34,041 nucleotides of DNA from positions 1 through 34,041 of the forward strand of contig JABSQZ010000006.1 in NCBI GenBank assembly GCA_013215505.1. The letters run 5' to 3'. The notes under the pieces were generated by a model. That model had not been told where the DNA came from and searched no databases. It was given only the letters and a program-made list of their open reading frames with translations. Shown here piece by piece: positions 2,143-33,905 of this stretch. Each line of letters begins with the position of its first letter. Positions within the stretch are counted from its first letter, which is position 1. A program made the position numbers and the translations under genes. This stretch comes from Oceanospirillaceae bacterium (GTDB lineage: Bacteria; Pseudomonadota; Gammaproteobacteria; Pseudomonadales; Balneatricaceae).

Positions 2143-4896
2143 TTGAGAATTCTGGATAATTCGAGTGCCGGTTTAAACAAGCAAATACTGGTTGTCACAT
2201 TGATGCCGCTGGTATTACTGTCGATCGTTTTAACCGTCTATTTTATCTGGAACCAAACCACTGACAGTAAAAAGATGCTGATGCAGCAAGGACATACCAT
2301 TGCCAAACTGATCTCAGTGAATGCCCGGGATCCGATTTTACAAAACAATTTGCAACAACTACTTAAACTCAGCGCTACATCTTTAGAGATAGCCGATGTG
2401 GCAGATGTGATTTTCTTAGATATCAGATACAAAGTACTGCAGCGCTCCGCTTCTTTTCCCATCGATTTACAAGCTACTGCTCCGTCTATTTATCACAGCG
2501 GTTCACACTGGTATTTCGTTCAGGCGGTTTCTACTAATAGTGCTGTCCCCTCGCTCTTTAACCGCTCCAAGCAAAAAACTGAATCCAGAGAAATCATTGG
2601 CTGGGTCATCGTATTATTGGCGGAGGGCCCCACTAACCAGCGCAATCAGAACACTGTATTAACCATTATTGCAGTCATCACAGTGATATTACTGTTTGCT
2701 TTTTGGGTAGCGGGACGTTTCGCCCGGCAGATAATGGTGCCCATTTCGGAGATCACTTCAGTGGTTGAAGCGATTCAAAAAGGTAACTTTGATGCCAGGG
2801 CCAGAGAATCCCACGCCGGCAAATTACACGCTTTGGCCAACGGTATTAATCGCATGGCAATGCGCATTAAAGTATCAACTACCGACATGGAAACGCGGGT
2901 CGACAGCGCCACCAGAAGGCTGCAATCTGCGATGCACCACCTGGAGCAGCAAAACGAAATTCTCGAAGTCACTAAAGAAAAGGAGGTTGAGGCCAATCAG
3001 GCGAAAGATCAGTTTTTGGCGCGCATGAGTCACGAATTGAGAACCCCTCTTACTTCAATGTTAGGCTTTTCCAAAATTCTCCAGGAGACCAACTTCAGCG
3101 ATGAACAAGTTGAGCCTATTCGCATCATTAACCACACTTCACAATTGTTACTGTCTATTGTCGACGACATCCTCGATTATTCAAAGCTGCAGAAAAATGC
3201 CGTCACCCTGGAGCGCATAGACTTTAATGTCGAAACGGCACTGCTGGATATATTAGAGATGCAGGCGCCAATGGCTCACTCTAAAGGTCTGGAGCTGTCA
3301 TTGGTAAGCAGTAATGGCCGCACTTTTGAAATCAAAGGCGATCCCACTAGATTCAAGCAGATTATCAGTAATTTAGTCTCAAATGCGATAAAGTTCACAG
3401 ACAAGGGCTCGGTGGCCATCAGCGCAGATATTCAGCATATCAGCTCTCATCAGTCACTGATTATTATCAGCGTCACCGACACCGGAATCGGTATTTCCGA
3501 TGAGCAGTTAAACAAATTATTTAAAGCTTTTGTCCAGGCGGACACCTCCATTACCCGCCGCTTCGGTGGCTCGGGCCTGGGTCTGGTTATCGCCAAAACA
3601 TTGACCAAGTTAATGGGCGGAAAACTGGAGATCTACTCTAAACAAAATCGCGGTACTAACGTCACCCTGCAAATTCCGACATTAAGTAATACCGAGCTTG
3701 AAGAACCGCCAGAACAGCTCTATGAAGAACGGCAGACAGTACTCATCTACGACGAGAACCAGCACGCCAGAAGATCAATTGCGCTGTTGCTGGAACGAAA
3801 AAATTACAATTATCGCTCGGTCTCTAACGTGGATGACCTGTTAAAATTAATACCTGATTACACGCATTTAATTATTGGCATTAAATCCACTGATATTAAA
3901 AACCAGCTAATCAATAGACTGCTGCCGATTCTCAGCGAGCAGAATGAAATTGTCACTTTCGCCCTGCCTAACGGTCACCCTCTTCCAGCACTACCCGCTG
4001 GCATCTTCATTATCAATAAACCCATTCGCCCTGAGGCTTTGATTGCCAGTGATAACTTTAATCGCGCTGCGCAGCAACACAGTGATCAAGAGCCGGCGGT
4101 AGAAGCAGAAATATCTGTGGTAGTAGCGGAAGATAATACCTTCAATCAGATATTGATTTCGAAGATTTTAGCCAAACACAACATCAAATCTTACATCGCC
4201 TCCAATGGTAAAGAAGCACTGGAACTGATCGCTAAGCACCAACCTGATCTGGCGATTATCGATATTCACATGCCGGTAATGGATGGTTTCGAAACCACTA
4301 AAATAATCCGCCAAAACAGTCAATTACCTATTATTTCGCTGACCGCCAATATCATTGAACAAGATCATCAAAAAATCACCGCAGCAGGCAGTAACCGTAT
4401 TGTTTTGAAACCTATAAACGATGTTGAGCTTATCAGCCATATCCGCACCCTGACTAAAGCTGCCACTAGTCACTTAGCAAGCAGGCCGGCTAAGACCATA
4501 GCAGTTTCAGCCAACAGCAGACAGAAAGACCTATTCTCGGCCATAGAACAGGAAGGGGCGGTCGTAGAGGCCATTGACAGCCCTAGCAGTTCGACCAGCA
4601 AGCAGCAGATTGCCACCAACATAGAGGATTACGACTTGGACCAAAGTGTCTTACACACTGAATTAGCCAGGTTATTAGCGTTATTAGAGTTGGCCTTTAG
4701 GGTCCCGGACAAAGCAGAAATGCGCAGTATCGCGCATCAGTTGGTAGGCTTAGCAGGATTATACGAACTGCCGGAAGTGGAGTTAACCACCATAGAATTA
4801 CAGGGAATTTTAAAGACAGACGATAGCCGAAAAACTTGGCAGTGCCTGTCCCGGCTGATACGTATTGTCAACAACAGCGACAGCGAGGATGAATAG
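2143..4896 (+). CDS. barA: BarA/GacS-type hybrid sensor histidine kinase
   Basis: A 917-residue tripartite kinase beginning at TTG. Two membrane segments (about 15-35 and 172-194) enclose a periplasmic loop, followed by a HAMP linker, a HisKA domain (MSHELRTPLTSMLGF, phosphoacceptor His297) and an ATPase with NAIKFTD, DTGIGI and GSGLGL boxes. A degenerate receiver (about 530-640) lacks an acceptor Asp. A true receiver (AEDN; IIDIHMPVMDG, Asp707) and a C-terminal Hpt domain (AHQLVGLAG, His865) follow. The order matches BarA/GacS, which phosphorylates UvrY/GacA to raise CsrB/RsmY-type RNAs controlling the carbon and motility switch. No uvrY/gacA or Rsm RNA is in the window, so the partner is elsewhere. 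The downstream convergent gene ends only 15 bases away. Confidence 0.88.
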   Translation: MRILDNSSAGLNKQILVVTLMPLVLLSIVLTVYFIWNQTTDSKKMLMQQGHTIAKLISVNARDPILQNNLQQLLKLSATSLEIADVADVIFLDIRYKVLQRSASFPIDLQATAPSIYHSGSHWYFVQAVSTNSAVPSLFNRSKQKTESREIIGWVIVLLAEGPTNQRNQNTVLTIIAVITVILLFAFWVAGRFARQIMVPISEITSVVEAIQKGNFDARARESHAGKLHALANGINRMAMRIKVSTTDMETRVDSATRRLQSAMHHLEQQNEILEVTKEKEVEANQAKDQFLARMSHELRTPLTSMLGFSKILQETNFSDEQVEPIRIINHTSQLLLSIVDDILDYSKLQKNAVTLERIDFNVETALLDILEMQAPMAHSKGLELSLVSSNGRTFEIKGDPTRFKQIISNLVSNAIKFTDKGSVAISADIQHISSHQSLIIISVTDTGIGISDEQLNKLFKAFVQADTSITRRFGGSGLGLVIAKTLTKLMGGKLEIYSKQNRGTNVTLQIPTLSNTELEEPPEQLYEERQTVLIYDENQHARRSIALLLERKNYNYRSVSNVDDLLKLIPDYTHLIIGIKSTDIKNQLINRLLPILSEQNEIVTFALPNGHPLPALPAGIFIINKPIRPEALIASDNFNRAAQQHSDQEPAVEAEISVVVAEDNTFNQILISKILAKHNIKSYIASNGKEALELIAKHQPDLAIIDIHMPVMDGFETTKIIRQNSQLPIISLTANIIEQDHQKITAAGSNRIVLKPINDVELISHIRTLTKAATSHLASRPAKTIAVSANSRQKDLFSAIEQEGAVVEAIDSPSSSTSKQQIATNIEDYDLDQSVLHTELARLLALLELAFRVPDKAEMRSIAHQLVGLAGLYELPEVELTTIELQGILKTDDSRKTWQCLSRLIRIVNNSDSEDE

Positions 4897-15173: not shown

Positions 15174-15222
15174 AGTCGCGAGTCGGAAGTCGGAAGTCGG
15201 AAGTCGGAAGTTAAAAGTTAAA
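15174..15222 (+). repeat. AGTNNNN heptamer tandem repeat
   Basis: Seven consecutive 7-base units all begin with AGT: one AGTCGCG (15174-15180), four AGTCGGA (15181-15208) and two AGTTAAA (15209-15222). The array starts just after the pirin stop. A related AGTTGGT array lies at 33836-33870. Confidence 0.85.
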
Positions 15223-15229
15223 AAAGGAA

Positions 15230-15335
15230 AGCATGAATGCTCTCCTAAAGCTGCGCTTTAACTACGGAGAAAAGAATAGAGAAAGCATAAATGCTCTCGT
15301 AAAGTAACTCCTAAAGCTGCGCTTTAACTACGGAG
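15230..15335. repeat. Paired palindromic intergenic element
   Basis: Two near-copies of a composite element. Each has a short palindrome (AGCATGAATGCT at 15230-15241; AGCATAAATGCT at 15284-15295) followed by a 28-base segment that is identical in both copies (15242-15269 and 15308-15335). The segment contains the palindrome TAAAGCTGCGCTTTA and ends in CTACGGAG. It looks like a REP or miniature-element family. Confidence 0.7.
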
Positions 15336-15779
15336 TTCCTTTACCCCCTTGGGTTGCCGCCGTAGCTGGTTGTCAAATTACTGAAGCGGAACAACAGGAT
15401 GTTGTGTAGAGCGAATGCGGCATGGATGCCGCTGATGAGCGGCCAGTAACTTGGCAATCAGCGGAGGAGTTTTCGGCAATCTTGGGCGTGCTTTCTTTGG
15501 TTACTTTCTTTACACGAGTAAAGAAAGTAACTCGTTGAAAACGAAATATTCTTAAAAAATCAAAAGAAATATCAGAAATTAATACTTTCAATAAAACCCG
15601 CCTCTAAAGATAAACTTTAAAAGAGAAATCAGTTTAAAGTGGCCTATTTTTTATTAGTGTGAGCAAAAATCTAAACTCACCTTCTAGGCATATCATCCCT
15701 TGTAAGATAGTTACGAAGCTAATGACTACCCCCGGGAAACAAAACCTATTTGCTCCAAGTTATAACTAGCAATAACCCG
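15336..15779. other. Gene-free spacer with strong hairpins, likely decayed dispersed repeat
   Basis: No coding support. GCGGCAT-GG-ATGCCGC lies at 15417-15432. At 15500-15531 a perfect 14-bp stem (GTTACTTTCTTTAC with its complement) closes on the 4-base loop ACGA. The surrounding sequence (TTCTTTGGTTACTTTCTTT) resembles an intergenic repeat common in proteobacterial genomes. The 3' part, about 15540-15779, is AT-rich and featureless. Confidence 0.55.
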
Positions 15780-17737: not shown

Positions 17738-17841
17738 GTCCAATATAGCCCTTGTCAGGTAAATAATGACCCCAGTTGCAAGTGAATACTCCTTGCAACT
17801 TCACTGATAAATGTAGATTTTTAAAACTTATAGAGAGCATT

Positions 17842-18465
17842 ATGGAATCAATTTTTGCCGTTATTAGTATAGCGTTTATCGCTATGATTACCCCTGGGCC
17901 TAACAACTTCATTGTCATGCACTGCGCTGTACGCAGCGGCTTCACTGCAGCATTGCCGCTGATATTTGCAGTGATAGCTGGCGCCTTTAGTATTTCATTG
18001 TTGGTCTGGGCAGGTATAGCGACACTACTGGCCGCCGTTCCCTGGCTACAATCACTGATAACAATTCTAGGTGCCAGTTATCTGGTATATCTAGGTTTAA
18101 GCCTGATGCTGATAAAAGTTACCGACAACACCAGAGAGCAGAAAAATGTACTGCCAAGCTCTTTCAAAGGGGTGTATTTATTTCAGTTTTTTAATCCTAA
18201 GTCCCTGGTATTGATCGCCACATTAATTACAGAGCTGGCCAGAGATTTTTCAGCTTTGAGTTCCCTGGGAATTCTGCTGGGGGTTATCATCTGTGTTCCG
18301 CTGCTCTGTCTGCTGATCTGGTCGGCTTGTGGACATCTACTGGCGGAACAATTAAAAGTTGCGGCTGTGCGCGCCGCCTTCAATAAAGTGATGGGATCAC
18401 TGTTAGTACTGCCTGCCTCTTTTGTACTCTGGAAAAACCTGGCTAGCTATTTTCAGTACAGTTAA
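17842..18465 (+). CDS. LysE/RhtB family amino-acid exporter
   Basis: A 207-residue inner-membrane protein with about six hydrophobic segments. The start at ATG 17842 is supported by AGAGAG about 6 bases upstream; an upstream in-frame extension is non-conserved. The family signature ITPGPNNFIVMHCAVRSGF is present near residue 15, and FFNPKSLVLIATLI in the middle. RhtB proteins export threonine, homoserine or similar amino acids, but they are too promiscuous to assign a substrate. It is 104 bases from the hydroquinone reductase gene and may be independent of it. Confidence 0.88.
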   Translation: MESIFAVISIAFIAMITPGPNNFIVMHCAVRSGFTAALPLIFAVIAGAFSISLLVWAGIATLLAAVPWLQSLITILGASYLVYLGLSLMLIKVTDNTREQKNVLPSSFKGVYLFQFFNPKSLVLIATLITELARDFSALSSLGILLGVIICVPLLCLLIWSACGHLLAEQLKVAAVRAAFNKVMGSLLVLPASFVLWKNLASYFQYS

Positions 18466-22768: not shown

Positions 22769-23374
22769 ATGAAAACTAATCCAATCAAATTCTTGTTGAT
22801 CGAATTTATCCTTTTAGTCGCGATAATGGCCTTGATTCCCTTCATTATCTCAGTCGATATTAGTGTTTTAAAAAATGGCCTCTCGGAAATATCGATCACT
22901 GAGTTTGCCCAGGAAAGCCTTATTTTTATCGCTGCGTTAGTGTTCTTTTTAAAGCTGCGAACAGAACCAGAATCCAGAGGATTATTAATTTTGATCTGCG
23001 GTTTATTCAGTATGATGTTTATCCGAGAAGGCGATTTTTATCTGGATTTTGTCTATCACGGCTTCTGGAAAGTCCCGGTACTGATCGTCCTGATTAGCAC
23101 TTTGTATTACAGCTACAAAAACAGAGCGACTATCATTGCACCGTTAAATCAGTACCGAAATACTAAAACTTTCACATATATTTTTATCGGTTTTCTAATC
23201 ACTGTGGTCTTTAGCCGGGTGTTTGGCACCGGCAGTTTATGGGTAGAGCTCTCTGGCAACACTGACAGCGGTTTTATCAAGACAGTAGTACAGGAAGGGT
23301 TAGAATTATTTGGCTACTCCCTTATCTTTATCGGATCTGTGTTATTACATTTCAAAAAATCAGCGGATCAGTGA
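22769..23374 (+). CDS. Multi-pass membrane protein of unknown function
   Basis: A 201-residue hydrophobic protein with six likely membrane segments (about 8-28, 44-62, 70-87, 97-115, 134-153 and 175-196). Conserved-looking polar positions occur in FIREGDFYLDFVYHGFWK, between helices 3 and 4. No named family is recognised, and the motif suggests a bacterial membrane family without known function. It converges on the argO-like gene, with a shared terminator 20 bases after its stop. Confidence 0.75.
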   Translation: MKTNPIKFLLIEFILLVAIMALIPFIISVDISVLKNGLSEISITEFAQESLIFIAALVFFLKLRTEPESRGLLILICGLFSMMFIREGDFYLDFVYHGFWKVPVLIVLISTLYYSYKNRATIIAPLNQYRNTKTFTYIFIGFLITVVFSRVFGTGSLWVELSGNTDSGFIKTVVQEGLELFGYSLIFIGSVLLHFKKSADQ

Positions 23375-23420: not shown

Positions 23421-23422
23421 CA

Positions 23423-23772
23423 AAAGTTAGAAATTAATAATAGCAAGGCAATCAACCACAGAGTACTTCCTACCAGTATGTCTAGCTTTTTGCCAGCTCT
23501 TGTCACTGTTAAACCAAGGTGCCAGCGATTTGCCTCCTACTGATTAAAAGGTAGAAGCTAATAGCAGCAAGGCAATCAACCACATAGTACTTGCTGGCAC
23601 CTTGGTTTAACAGTGACAAGAGCTGGCAAAAGCTAGACATACTGGTAGGGATTTGCCTCCTACTGATTAAAAGGTAGAAGCTAATAGCAGCAAGGCAATC
23701 AACCACATAGTACTTCCTACCAGTATGTCTAGCTTTTGCCAGCTCTTGTCACTGTTAAACCAAGGTGCCAGC
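23423..23772. repeat. Alternating 57/66-bp repeat array with exact inversion of the middle unit, at the argO 3' end
   Basis: Segment Y occurs as Y1 23469-23526 (plus orientation, one extra T), Y2 23593-23649 (exact reverse complement) and Y3 23716-23772 (plus orientation). Segment Z, 66 bases, is identical at 23527-23592 and 23650-23715. A diverged Z end (23423-23468) precedes Y1. Y3 and the adjoining Z encode the last codons of the exporter on the minus strand. The leftmost copy retains a diverged version of the same 3' end ending in TGA at 23420-23422. The array therefore looks like a tandem triplication of the gene's tail with only the core of the middle copy inverted. Confidence 0.9.
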
Positions 23773-24278
23773 ACTTTGCCTCCTACGACCAAAGTTAAAA
23801 ACCAAAGTGCGGAGGCGACGCTTGCCCCCAAAGCAAACCAGATTGGCTGGTTATCGGGCAGTTGCCCGCCGATACTGCCGAGCAACACTACTGTATCTAA
23901 ATACACATGCGGGTTTAACAAACTCAGCGCCGTCGTCGTCGCAATCGCCGCTGTCACTGTCATAGTTTTTACCGAAGTTGCTGCCATTCCCTGTGGAGAG
24001 AATGCACGGCGAAAAGCTAAAGCGCCATAGACAAATAGGAACGCCGCACCGAAATAACTGGCAAGCACGATTAGCATTGGGGCTGCGCTAATCAGTGCTC
24101 CCAAGCCTAATACTCCAGAAAAAATAAGGGCTACATCAATTAATACACAGACGCTAGCGATGACAAAAGCGTGTTGTTTACGCAGTGCGCTACTCAAAAC
24201 GAAAGCATTTTGTGAGCCTATGGCCATAATCAAACTCGCCCCTATACCCATGCCTTTAAGAAAAGGAAAAAACCACAT
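23667..24278 (-). CDS. argO: LysE/ArgO family amino-acid exporter
   Basis: A 203-residue inner-membrane exporter of basic amino acids (arginine or lysine). The start at 24278 is chosen because AGAGGT lies about 9 bases upstream and the protein begins WFFPFLKGMGIGASLIMAIG as family members do. The MAIGSQNAFVLSSALRKQH signature is present, along with LSLLNPHVYLDTVVLLGS and the C-terminal helix STMWLIALLLLAS. It diverges from an ArgP-like LysR gene, the classic regulator-exporter pair. Its last 33 or so codons lie inside the repeat array, so the natural terminator is separated from the stop codon by about 250 bases of duplicated tail. Confidence 0.92.
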   Translation of the reverse strand: MWFFPFLKGMGIGASLIMAIGSQNAFVLSSALRKQHAFVIASVCVLIDVALIFSGVLGLGALISAAPMLIVLASYFGAAFLFVYGALAFRRAFSPQGMAATSVKTMTVTAAIATTTALSLLNPHVYLDTVVLLGSIGGQLPDNQPIWFALGASVASALWFLTLVVGGKVLAPWFNSDKSWQKLDILVGSTMWLIALLLLASTF

Positions 24279-24392: not shown

Positions 24393-25298
24393 ATGATTGA
24401 TCCTAAAGGACTAAGTGCCTTTCTAGCTATAGTGTCCCAAAGTAATTTTGAGCAGGCGGCCAACGCGCTGTTTATTACTCAATCGGCAGTTTCACAAAGA
24501 TTGAAGTTATTAGAACAGAGTTTAGGGCAGACCCTATTACTGAGATCACCGACGATAAAACCGACTCCTGCCGGACAAGCACTGCTTAAATACGCACATA
24601 ACCTGAGCCAGATTGAACGCTCATTGGCTCAGGAATTAGCCCCTAAAAAACAACTACAGTGGTTAAAGGTGTCGATTGCCACTAACGCTGATTCTCTGTC
24701 CACATGGCTATTAAGTGCTCTGGCCCCCTGGTGCCAAAAACATCAGGTACTGTTAGACCTGCGAGTGGATGATCAAGATCAAACCCATCAACTATTGCGC
24801 AGCGGCGAAGTACTCGGCTGTATTAGCTCCGTTGAGCAGCCTACCCAAGGCTGTACTAGCACCGCGTTGGGCAGTATTAATTATCACTGCATTGCCAGTG
24901 CTGATTTCCAAAAAAAGTATTTCGCCAAGGGCGTGGATAAACATAGTTTACAAAAAGCGCCCACGGTTATTTTTGGTCGCCATGATTTGTTACAGCATCA
25001 GTACTTAAAGCAGTTCTATTCACTGGATGCCAATCGACAACTGCAACACTTAGTGCCATCTTCCGATGGCTATCTGGAATGGATAAGATTGGGGATGGGT
25101 TTTGGCATGGCACCAAAACTGCAAATGCAGCACCTATTAGATAGTGGCGACTTAGTACTTGTTACCCCGCAACAGAGCATTGCAGTACCCTTGTATTGGC
25201 AGCAATGGGGTATTAGCACAGATTTAAGCCGCTCTTTGGCAAAGCAAATAGAGCATTTTGCCACTATCGCTCACGGCCAAGATCCAGATCTAAACTGA
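24393..25298 (+). CDS. argP: LysR-family regulator ArgP/LysG type
   Basis: A 301-residue regulator of the ArgP (IciA/LysG) subgroup. It opens with MIDPKGLSAFLAIVSQSNFE, as family members do with the AFxAVxxxGSFExAA pattern, then TQSAVSQRLKLLEQSLG as the recognition region. The effector domain has VPSSDGYLEWIRLGMGFGM, typical of ArgP. It normally activates the exporter gene when arginine is in excess and is inhibited by lysine. The divergent argO-like gene supports the call. About 20 bases separate its stop from the convergent pseudogene's end. Confidence 0.9.
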   Translation: MIDPKGLSAFLAIVSQSNFEQAANALFITQSAVSQRLKLLEQSLGQTLLLRSPTIKPTPAGQALLKYAHNLSQIERSLAQELAPKKQLQWLKVSIATNADSLSTWLLSALAPWCQKHQVLLDLRVDDQDQTHQLLRSGEVLGCISSVEQPTQGCTSTALGSINYHCIASADFQKKYFAKGVDKHSLQKAPTVIFGRHDLLQHQYLKQFYSLDANRQLQHLVPSSDGYLEWIRLGMGFGMAPKLQMQHLLDSGDLVLVTPQQSIAVPLYWQQWGISTDLSRSLAKQIEHFATIAHGQDPDLN

Positions 25299-33276: not shown

Positions 33277-33700
33277 AGAAGCCTGCTGCGGGTTTAGGCG
33301 ATTAATGCTGACTTAGAATGGACCTGTAGAAACAGGTTCCTGCAGTGATCTGATAACGCAAGCTTACGTTGTAAACCTTATAGCCTACAGCCTGTTGTTC
33401 CATATCAGAATAATGTTTTAGAAACAGATTCAGGCAGTGATTCGCTAGCAAGGACTTGGCCTGCTAGAGCTTAAGAGCCTTCATAGGGTTGTTCTAAATG
33501 GTGATAATGCTTTAGAAGCAGATTCCGCAGAGTGTGCGCTAAGGCAAACTAGGCGTGTGAGAGTTTAAGAGCCTGTGGCGGGTTGTTCCAAATGAGAATA
33601 ATGCTATAGAAGCAGGTTCCGGCAGTGATGCGCTGGGAATAACTTGGCGTGATCAAGCCTAGCTGAAAATGCAAGCGCCGCTACAAGAGCCTTCAGGGAA
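33277..33700. repeat. Degenerate tandem repeat, period about 94 bp
   Basis: Units begin AGAARC at 33277 (partial), 33328, 33420, 33514 and 33608, giving periods of 92, 94 and 94 bases between the full units. Each has the order AGAAGCAGRTTCC, CAGTGATGCGCT, ACTTGGCGTG, TTAAGAGCCT, GGGTTGTTC and AATAATGCTTT with many substitutions. A solitary copy lies at 33906. No conserved open frame runs through them. Confidence 0.75.
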
Positions 33701-33835: not shown

Positions 33836-33870
33836 AGTTGGTAGTTGGTAGTTGGTAGTTGGTAGTTGGT
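33836..33870 (+). repeat. AGTTGGT heptamer tandem repeat
   Basis: Five consecutive AGTTGGT units followed by the imperfect AGTTGAG. The unit shape (AGT plus four bases) matches the heptamer array at 15174-15222. Confidence 0.85.
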
Positions 33871-33905
33871 AGTTGAGGATATTTAAGTAATGTCATCGCA
33901 GCTTC

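Follow-up and report, generated by a model that had tools for sequence, protein, structure and literature searches.

A reversed core in a tandemly repeated exporter gene tail of an Oceanospirillaceae bacterium and its possible origin by replication template switching

In this study, the 3′ end of a LysE/ArgO-like exporter gene was analysed in a stretch of 34,041 nucleotides (nt), hereafter called the window, from Oceanospirillaceae bacterium (assembly GCA_013215505.1, contig JABSQZ010000006.1, positions 1 to 34,041 of the forward strand). The end of this gene forms a 123-bp unit made up of a head, a core (Y) and a segment Z, and two further units follow downstream at spacings of 123 and 123 bp. 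In the middle unit, Y alone is reversed. The tail array is taken to be real, and the reversed core is probably a real scar of template switching.

Structure of the tail array

The array consists of the following elements.
23664 to 23786, minus strand: unit copy 3, in the 3′ end of the exporter gene
23716 to 23772: Y3, the exporter gene's own Y
23541 to 23663, minus strand: unit copy 2, the middle copy, which holds Y2
23593 to 23649, plus strand: Y2, the reversed 57-bp core, exact reverse complement of Y3
23422 to 23540, minus strand: unit copy 1

A sequence-only reading of this stretch had described Y2 as the perfect reverse complement of Y3, with the surrounding Z segments in direct orientation, and the description was confirmed: the match is exact over 57 bp, head and Z are direct in all three copies, and only Y runs direct (Y3), inverted (Y2) and direct (Y1). 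In copy 2, the head and Z are direct, and the two 66-bp Z segments beside Y2 are direct and identical. Copy 1 also proved to be as described, with a direct Y carrying one inserted base and a diverged Z. The inverted match at the array covered 58 of 58 positions and the three-copy tandem array scored 453 in Tandem Repeats Finder; neither is due to chance. A genome-wide search for further copies of Y, which the reading had proposed, was made in the 5.73-Mb genome using the array, and matches were found solely at this locus.

When copy 2 was turned back, 121 of the 123 sites were identical to copy 3 and the remaining 2 to copy 1, with zero private substitutions, indicating that the flip is recent. 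Between copies 1 and 3, Y was significantly more alike than Z; these two copies differ directly before Y, and their first difference in Z is at its eighth base. With head-to-tail copies of the gene end lying beside an intact full gene of 203 amino acids (aa), the array is a partial tandem duplication of the gene end.

The gene itself and its surroundings are as follows.
23667 to 24278, minus strand: LysE/ArgO-like exporter gene, 203 aa (translation; Pfam LysE, 3.3e-35)
22769 to 23374, plus strand: convergent neighbour gene, 201 aa
23397 to 23414, strand unassigned: terminator-like hairpin between copy 1 and the convergent gene
24393 to 25298, plus strand: argP/lysG-family regulator gene, divergent from the exporter gene and exceeding the NCBIfam family cut-off

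The exporter protein scored under the NCBIfam cut-offs for both ArgO and the lysine exporter, and the product of the convergent gene had no family match in Pfam or NCBIfam. The hairpin was scored by the scan on the plus strand only, the T run on the minus strand being too short for the rule. A second LysE-family gene was observed in the window at 17776-18465.

Tail copies in the genus and gene-end duplications elsewhere

The locus was compared in 7 genomes of the genus, including that of the window (G000), as the sequence-only reading had suggested. Three tail copies, all direct and 122–123 bp apart, were found in G006; its copies 2 and 3 are divergent, at 81.1 and 69.7% identity to the gene. 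Upon reading by eye, the junction in G000 and G006 was located at the same place, with three bases between the stop codon and the unit head, which we take to reflect common descent. G005 has a different tail duplication, with a spacing of 178 and an intergenic part included; in this genome (L007 2036-2298), the reading frame continues past the usual stop in the first copy, and the protein reaches 224 aa in place of 203. Single tails were present in G001, G002, G003 and G004, and an exporter length of 203 aa was also found in G002, G003, G004 and G006. The flip was seen solely in the window's genome. The array had earlier been treated as one puzzle; the relatives instead reveal two layers, a direct tail duplication that G006 shares and a flip observed in the window's genome only.

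Genomes G000, G003 and G006 are about equidistant, with identities of 80.8–85.0% over the first 480 nt of the gene (85.0% between G006 and the window's genome), 81.9–83.9% in the argP region and 81.8–84.6% downstream. As their branching order allows either, the array may have been lost from G003 or may never have existed there. The locus shows how spare gene tails arise, decay and get partly homogenised within one genus.

Gene-end duplications were also surveyed by eye in G000 (824 kb, comprising 40 stretches plus the window), in the control genomes G008, G012, G017 and G020 (800 kb, 40 stretches) and in G001 and G002 (382 kb, 20 stretches). Arrays were counted if they touched a gene and were not contained within a long reading frame. 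Seven loci were read in G000, including the array of the window and the following.
L109 18392-18592: tail duplication, DTW-domain gene
L157 6881-7129: tail duplication, glcF
L148 5110-5488: tail duplication, bifunctional salicylyl-CoA 5-hydroxylase/oxidoreductase gene
L114 4-297: head duplication, rsxC
L160 1825-2073: head duplication, aat
L150 4196-4426: partial duplication of a transfer RNA gene

The script labels did not flag L148 and L157, which were added on inspection, and L150 was labelled as a reading frame though it is a transfer RNA gene. Two possible gene-end duplications (L140 and L142) were found in the four control genomes, and none that was clear in G001 and G002. The idea that gene ends are duplicated habitually across this genome is no more than suggestive (7 versus 2; binomial P = 0.097, not significant) and was not adopted; the contrast is weaker still because the G000 survey includes the window, which was chosen for its array and not at random. 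Such copies fit the expectation for tolerated tandem duplications, since a duplication running past a gene end leaves a whole gene.

Other repeats were noted in the window. Similar-looking intergenic palindromic sequences, as judged by eye, are located at 15242-15520 and in L105 at 3963-4436, and probably represent a dispersed repeat family of this genome. Intergenic heptanucleotide repeats are AGTCGGA × 4.4 (15181-15211) and AGTTGGT × 5.7 (33836-33875), and a degenerate intergenic tandem array (period 94, 2.7 copies, 73% matches) is located near the contig end at 33394-33651.

Origin of the reversed core

Template switching had been named among several alternatives and now leads them. In a single-event test, copy 2 was removed and the events capable of rebuilding the array were enumerated. 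Starting from the resulting two-copy state, one forward-backward-forward switch rebuilt the array without a mismatch, with 2 solutions reflecting one base of slack, and pure direct-copy solutions numbered 0. Both solutions use the gene's own Y as the source, in line with the recent copying of Y proposed earlier; Y1, with its extra base, would serve as an exact source only if that base was gained later. The array has the form of a four-point template switch on the putative two-copy ancestor, in which forward copying gives way to backward copying of a nearby stretch and then resumes. Replication would have begun on a direct two-copy tail array, departed at the start of Y in copy 1, copied the gene's own Y backward and resumed forward copying just after the gene's Y. 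On balance, we favour an old tail duplication that was partly homogenised and then recently altered by such a replication template switch.

An assembly artefact had also been considered. For the whole array this is unlikely, as the assembly of the congener G006 has three tail copies and the same junction. It is also rather unlikely, though several points favour it, that only the flip is wrong, the middle Y of a correct array having been placed backwards in assembly or sequencing: the inverted Y2 is known from one assembly, the left edge of Y is a possible break of a repeat graph because copies 3 and 1 differ just before it, and the perfect register, which is the best argument for this explanation, is the outcome expected from a misplaced block. 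However, both joins of Y2 are absent elsewhere in the array and would need inventing, copies 1 and 3 do not start to differ at the right edge of Y, the array is interior to the contig and not at its end, and G006 backs the array itself.

Inverted repeats at the edges of Y were sought in 9 tests (3 states × 3 flank lengths), and none was better than at 3000 random places, in agreement with the earlier claim that the ends of Y are not inverted repeats of each other. An imperfect 7-of-9 inverted match near the edges of Y in copy 3 was at chance level (P = 0.49). Site-specific recombinases do produce conservative inversions that keep register, and 16 tyrosine-recombinase and 5 resolvase matches are present in the genome. 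Nevertheless, the site-specific inverting activity that had been suggested, with Y flipped as a switch, is highly improbable, given edges lacking inverted sites above chance and joins sharing 0–1 nt; among the two families searched, none of the 16 and 5 matches is on C51, the contig of the window, and a piece located 3′ of the stop codon cannot alter the protein when flipped. The three strongest tyrosine-recombinase matches in G000 (C1:749894-750391, C45:30048-30548 and C10:150037-150540) each contain a single internal stop as scored.

The nearly blunt joins would fit a pair of double-strand breaks, one at each end of Y, with the piece between them ligated back in reverse orientation. The chance of this is likewise very slim, as a search aimed at Ku alone gave no match in a genome given as 98.23% complete, and two breaks 57 bp apart with zero bases lost are improbable. 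In the control for the Ku search, Bacillus subtilis was the only one of 14 genomes to give a match. Repeat-mediated inversion and Ku end joining thus look unlikely, there being neither an above-chance inverted repeat nor a Ku match.

Several points weigh against the favoured template switch. The switch points are at matching unit offsets, with the start of Y used twice and the end of Y used twice, and the product keeps perfect register because the departure point and the inner backward end share an offset and the other two points coincide. A free template switch would not demand such a coincidence, whereas a recombinase or inverted repeats would account for the register. The joins share 0–1 nt only, and no flanking inverted repeat above chance is present at Y. 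The two-copy state before the event is a reconstruction: within the species, neither a strain with two copies nor one with three direct copies was found, and the 7 genus genomes gave no two-copy relative. G003, about as closely related, has a single tail, the same junction in G000 and G006 could in principle have arisen twice, and the flip has been seen in one assembly.

A further type of bacterial mutation may be proposed, although we consider it rather doubtful. During a one-unit slip-back of the nascent strand, the gap would be filled by a same-sense copy of the template interval, leaving a near-blunt, register-keeping reversed patch of tens of bases without inverted repeats or Ku. Slippage in tandem arrays could regularly leave such reversed patches, which would have been overlooked because units with a reversed core are seldom sought.

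The flip is downstream of the exporter stop codon and leaves the protein unchanged, with no evident effect on it; no sign of function or of selection for the flip was found. The transcript is predicted to carry a 57-bp stem, and its folding energy was −190.3 kcal/mol, far below the shuffle mean of −119.87 (standard deviation 5.65; z = −12.47; 0 of 100 shuffles as low). On this ground, selection could be proposed to act on the inverted pair as an RNA hairpin within the 3′ untranslated part of the exporter transcript. This is very unlikely, since any 57-bp inverted repeat would fold likewise, the identical arms do not allow compensatory changes to be assessed, G006 and G003 have no such inverted pair, and the window had no Rfam match at gathering scores.

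Comparison with known systems

Shufflons are invertible gene tails, in which alternative gene ends are adjacent and one of them is inverted. The present array differs from them in that no recombination sites were found and the inverted piece is 3′ of the stop codon. Among the papers listed in searches of open-licence literature, none was recognised as describing a bacterial tandem array of gene tails with a reversed core.

Quasipalindrome-associated template switching in E. coli has an imperfect inverted repeat as its starting point (Klaric et al. 2020, PMC7202029). It resembles the present case as bacterial template switching that renders inverted arms more alike, and could now keep Y1, Y2 and Y3 alike; it differs in that no above-chance inverted repeat was present at Y before the flip.

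A survey of human and chimpanzee described 59 definite microinversions of 17–33 nt, each reported to be flanked by inverted repeats, some imperfect, with lengths of 3 to 75 nt (Potapova et al. 2022, PMC8755829). Like these, the flip of Y turns a short stretch around exactly and with no change in length. A real flip would be a length-keeping reversal of 57 bp whose edges lack above-chance inverted repeats, unlike these 59 cases as reported; by a rule as lax as theirs, the chance-level 7-of-9 match near the edges in copy 3 might count.

Small inverted triplications, for which replication template switching was proposed as the origin, have duplicated/inverted parts of 148/160/148 bp, a 30-bp spacer and a 6-bp breakpoint junction, 6 bp being the dominant length of their reverse-complementary breakpoint junctions (Lei et al. 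2026, PMC13334657). The arrangement of direct, inverted and direct copies of tens to hundreds of bases is shared, though by Y and not by the whole unit. In contrast, the joins here share 0–1 nt, short of such junctions, only the core is inverted, and the tandem copies would have pre-existed.

The short-range template switches of apes have backward stretches with a median of 12 and a maximum of 128 nt, and the return point precedes the departure point in many events (Walker et al. 2021, PMC7954356). The event proposed here is like these four-point switches, with backward copying from the opposite strand followed by forward copying, and its return would also precede its departure. It is unlike them in having occurred in a bacterium and in a tandem array, with a backward stretch of 57 nt and a product in perfect unit register. 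If the flip is real, this locus offers a clean bacterial short template switch, the source, departure and return points of which can be read from the sequence.
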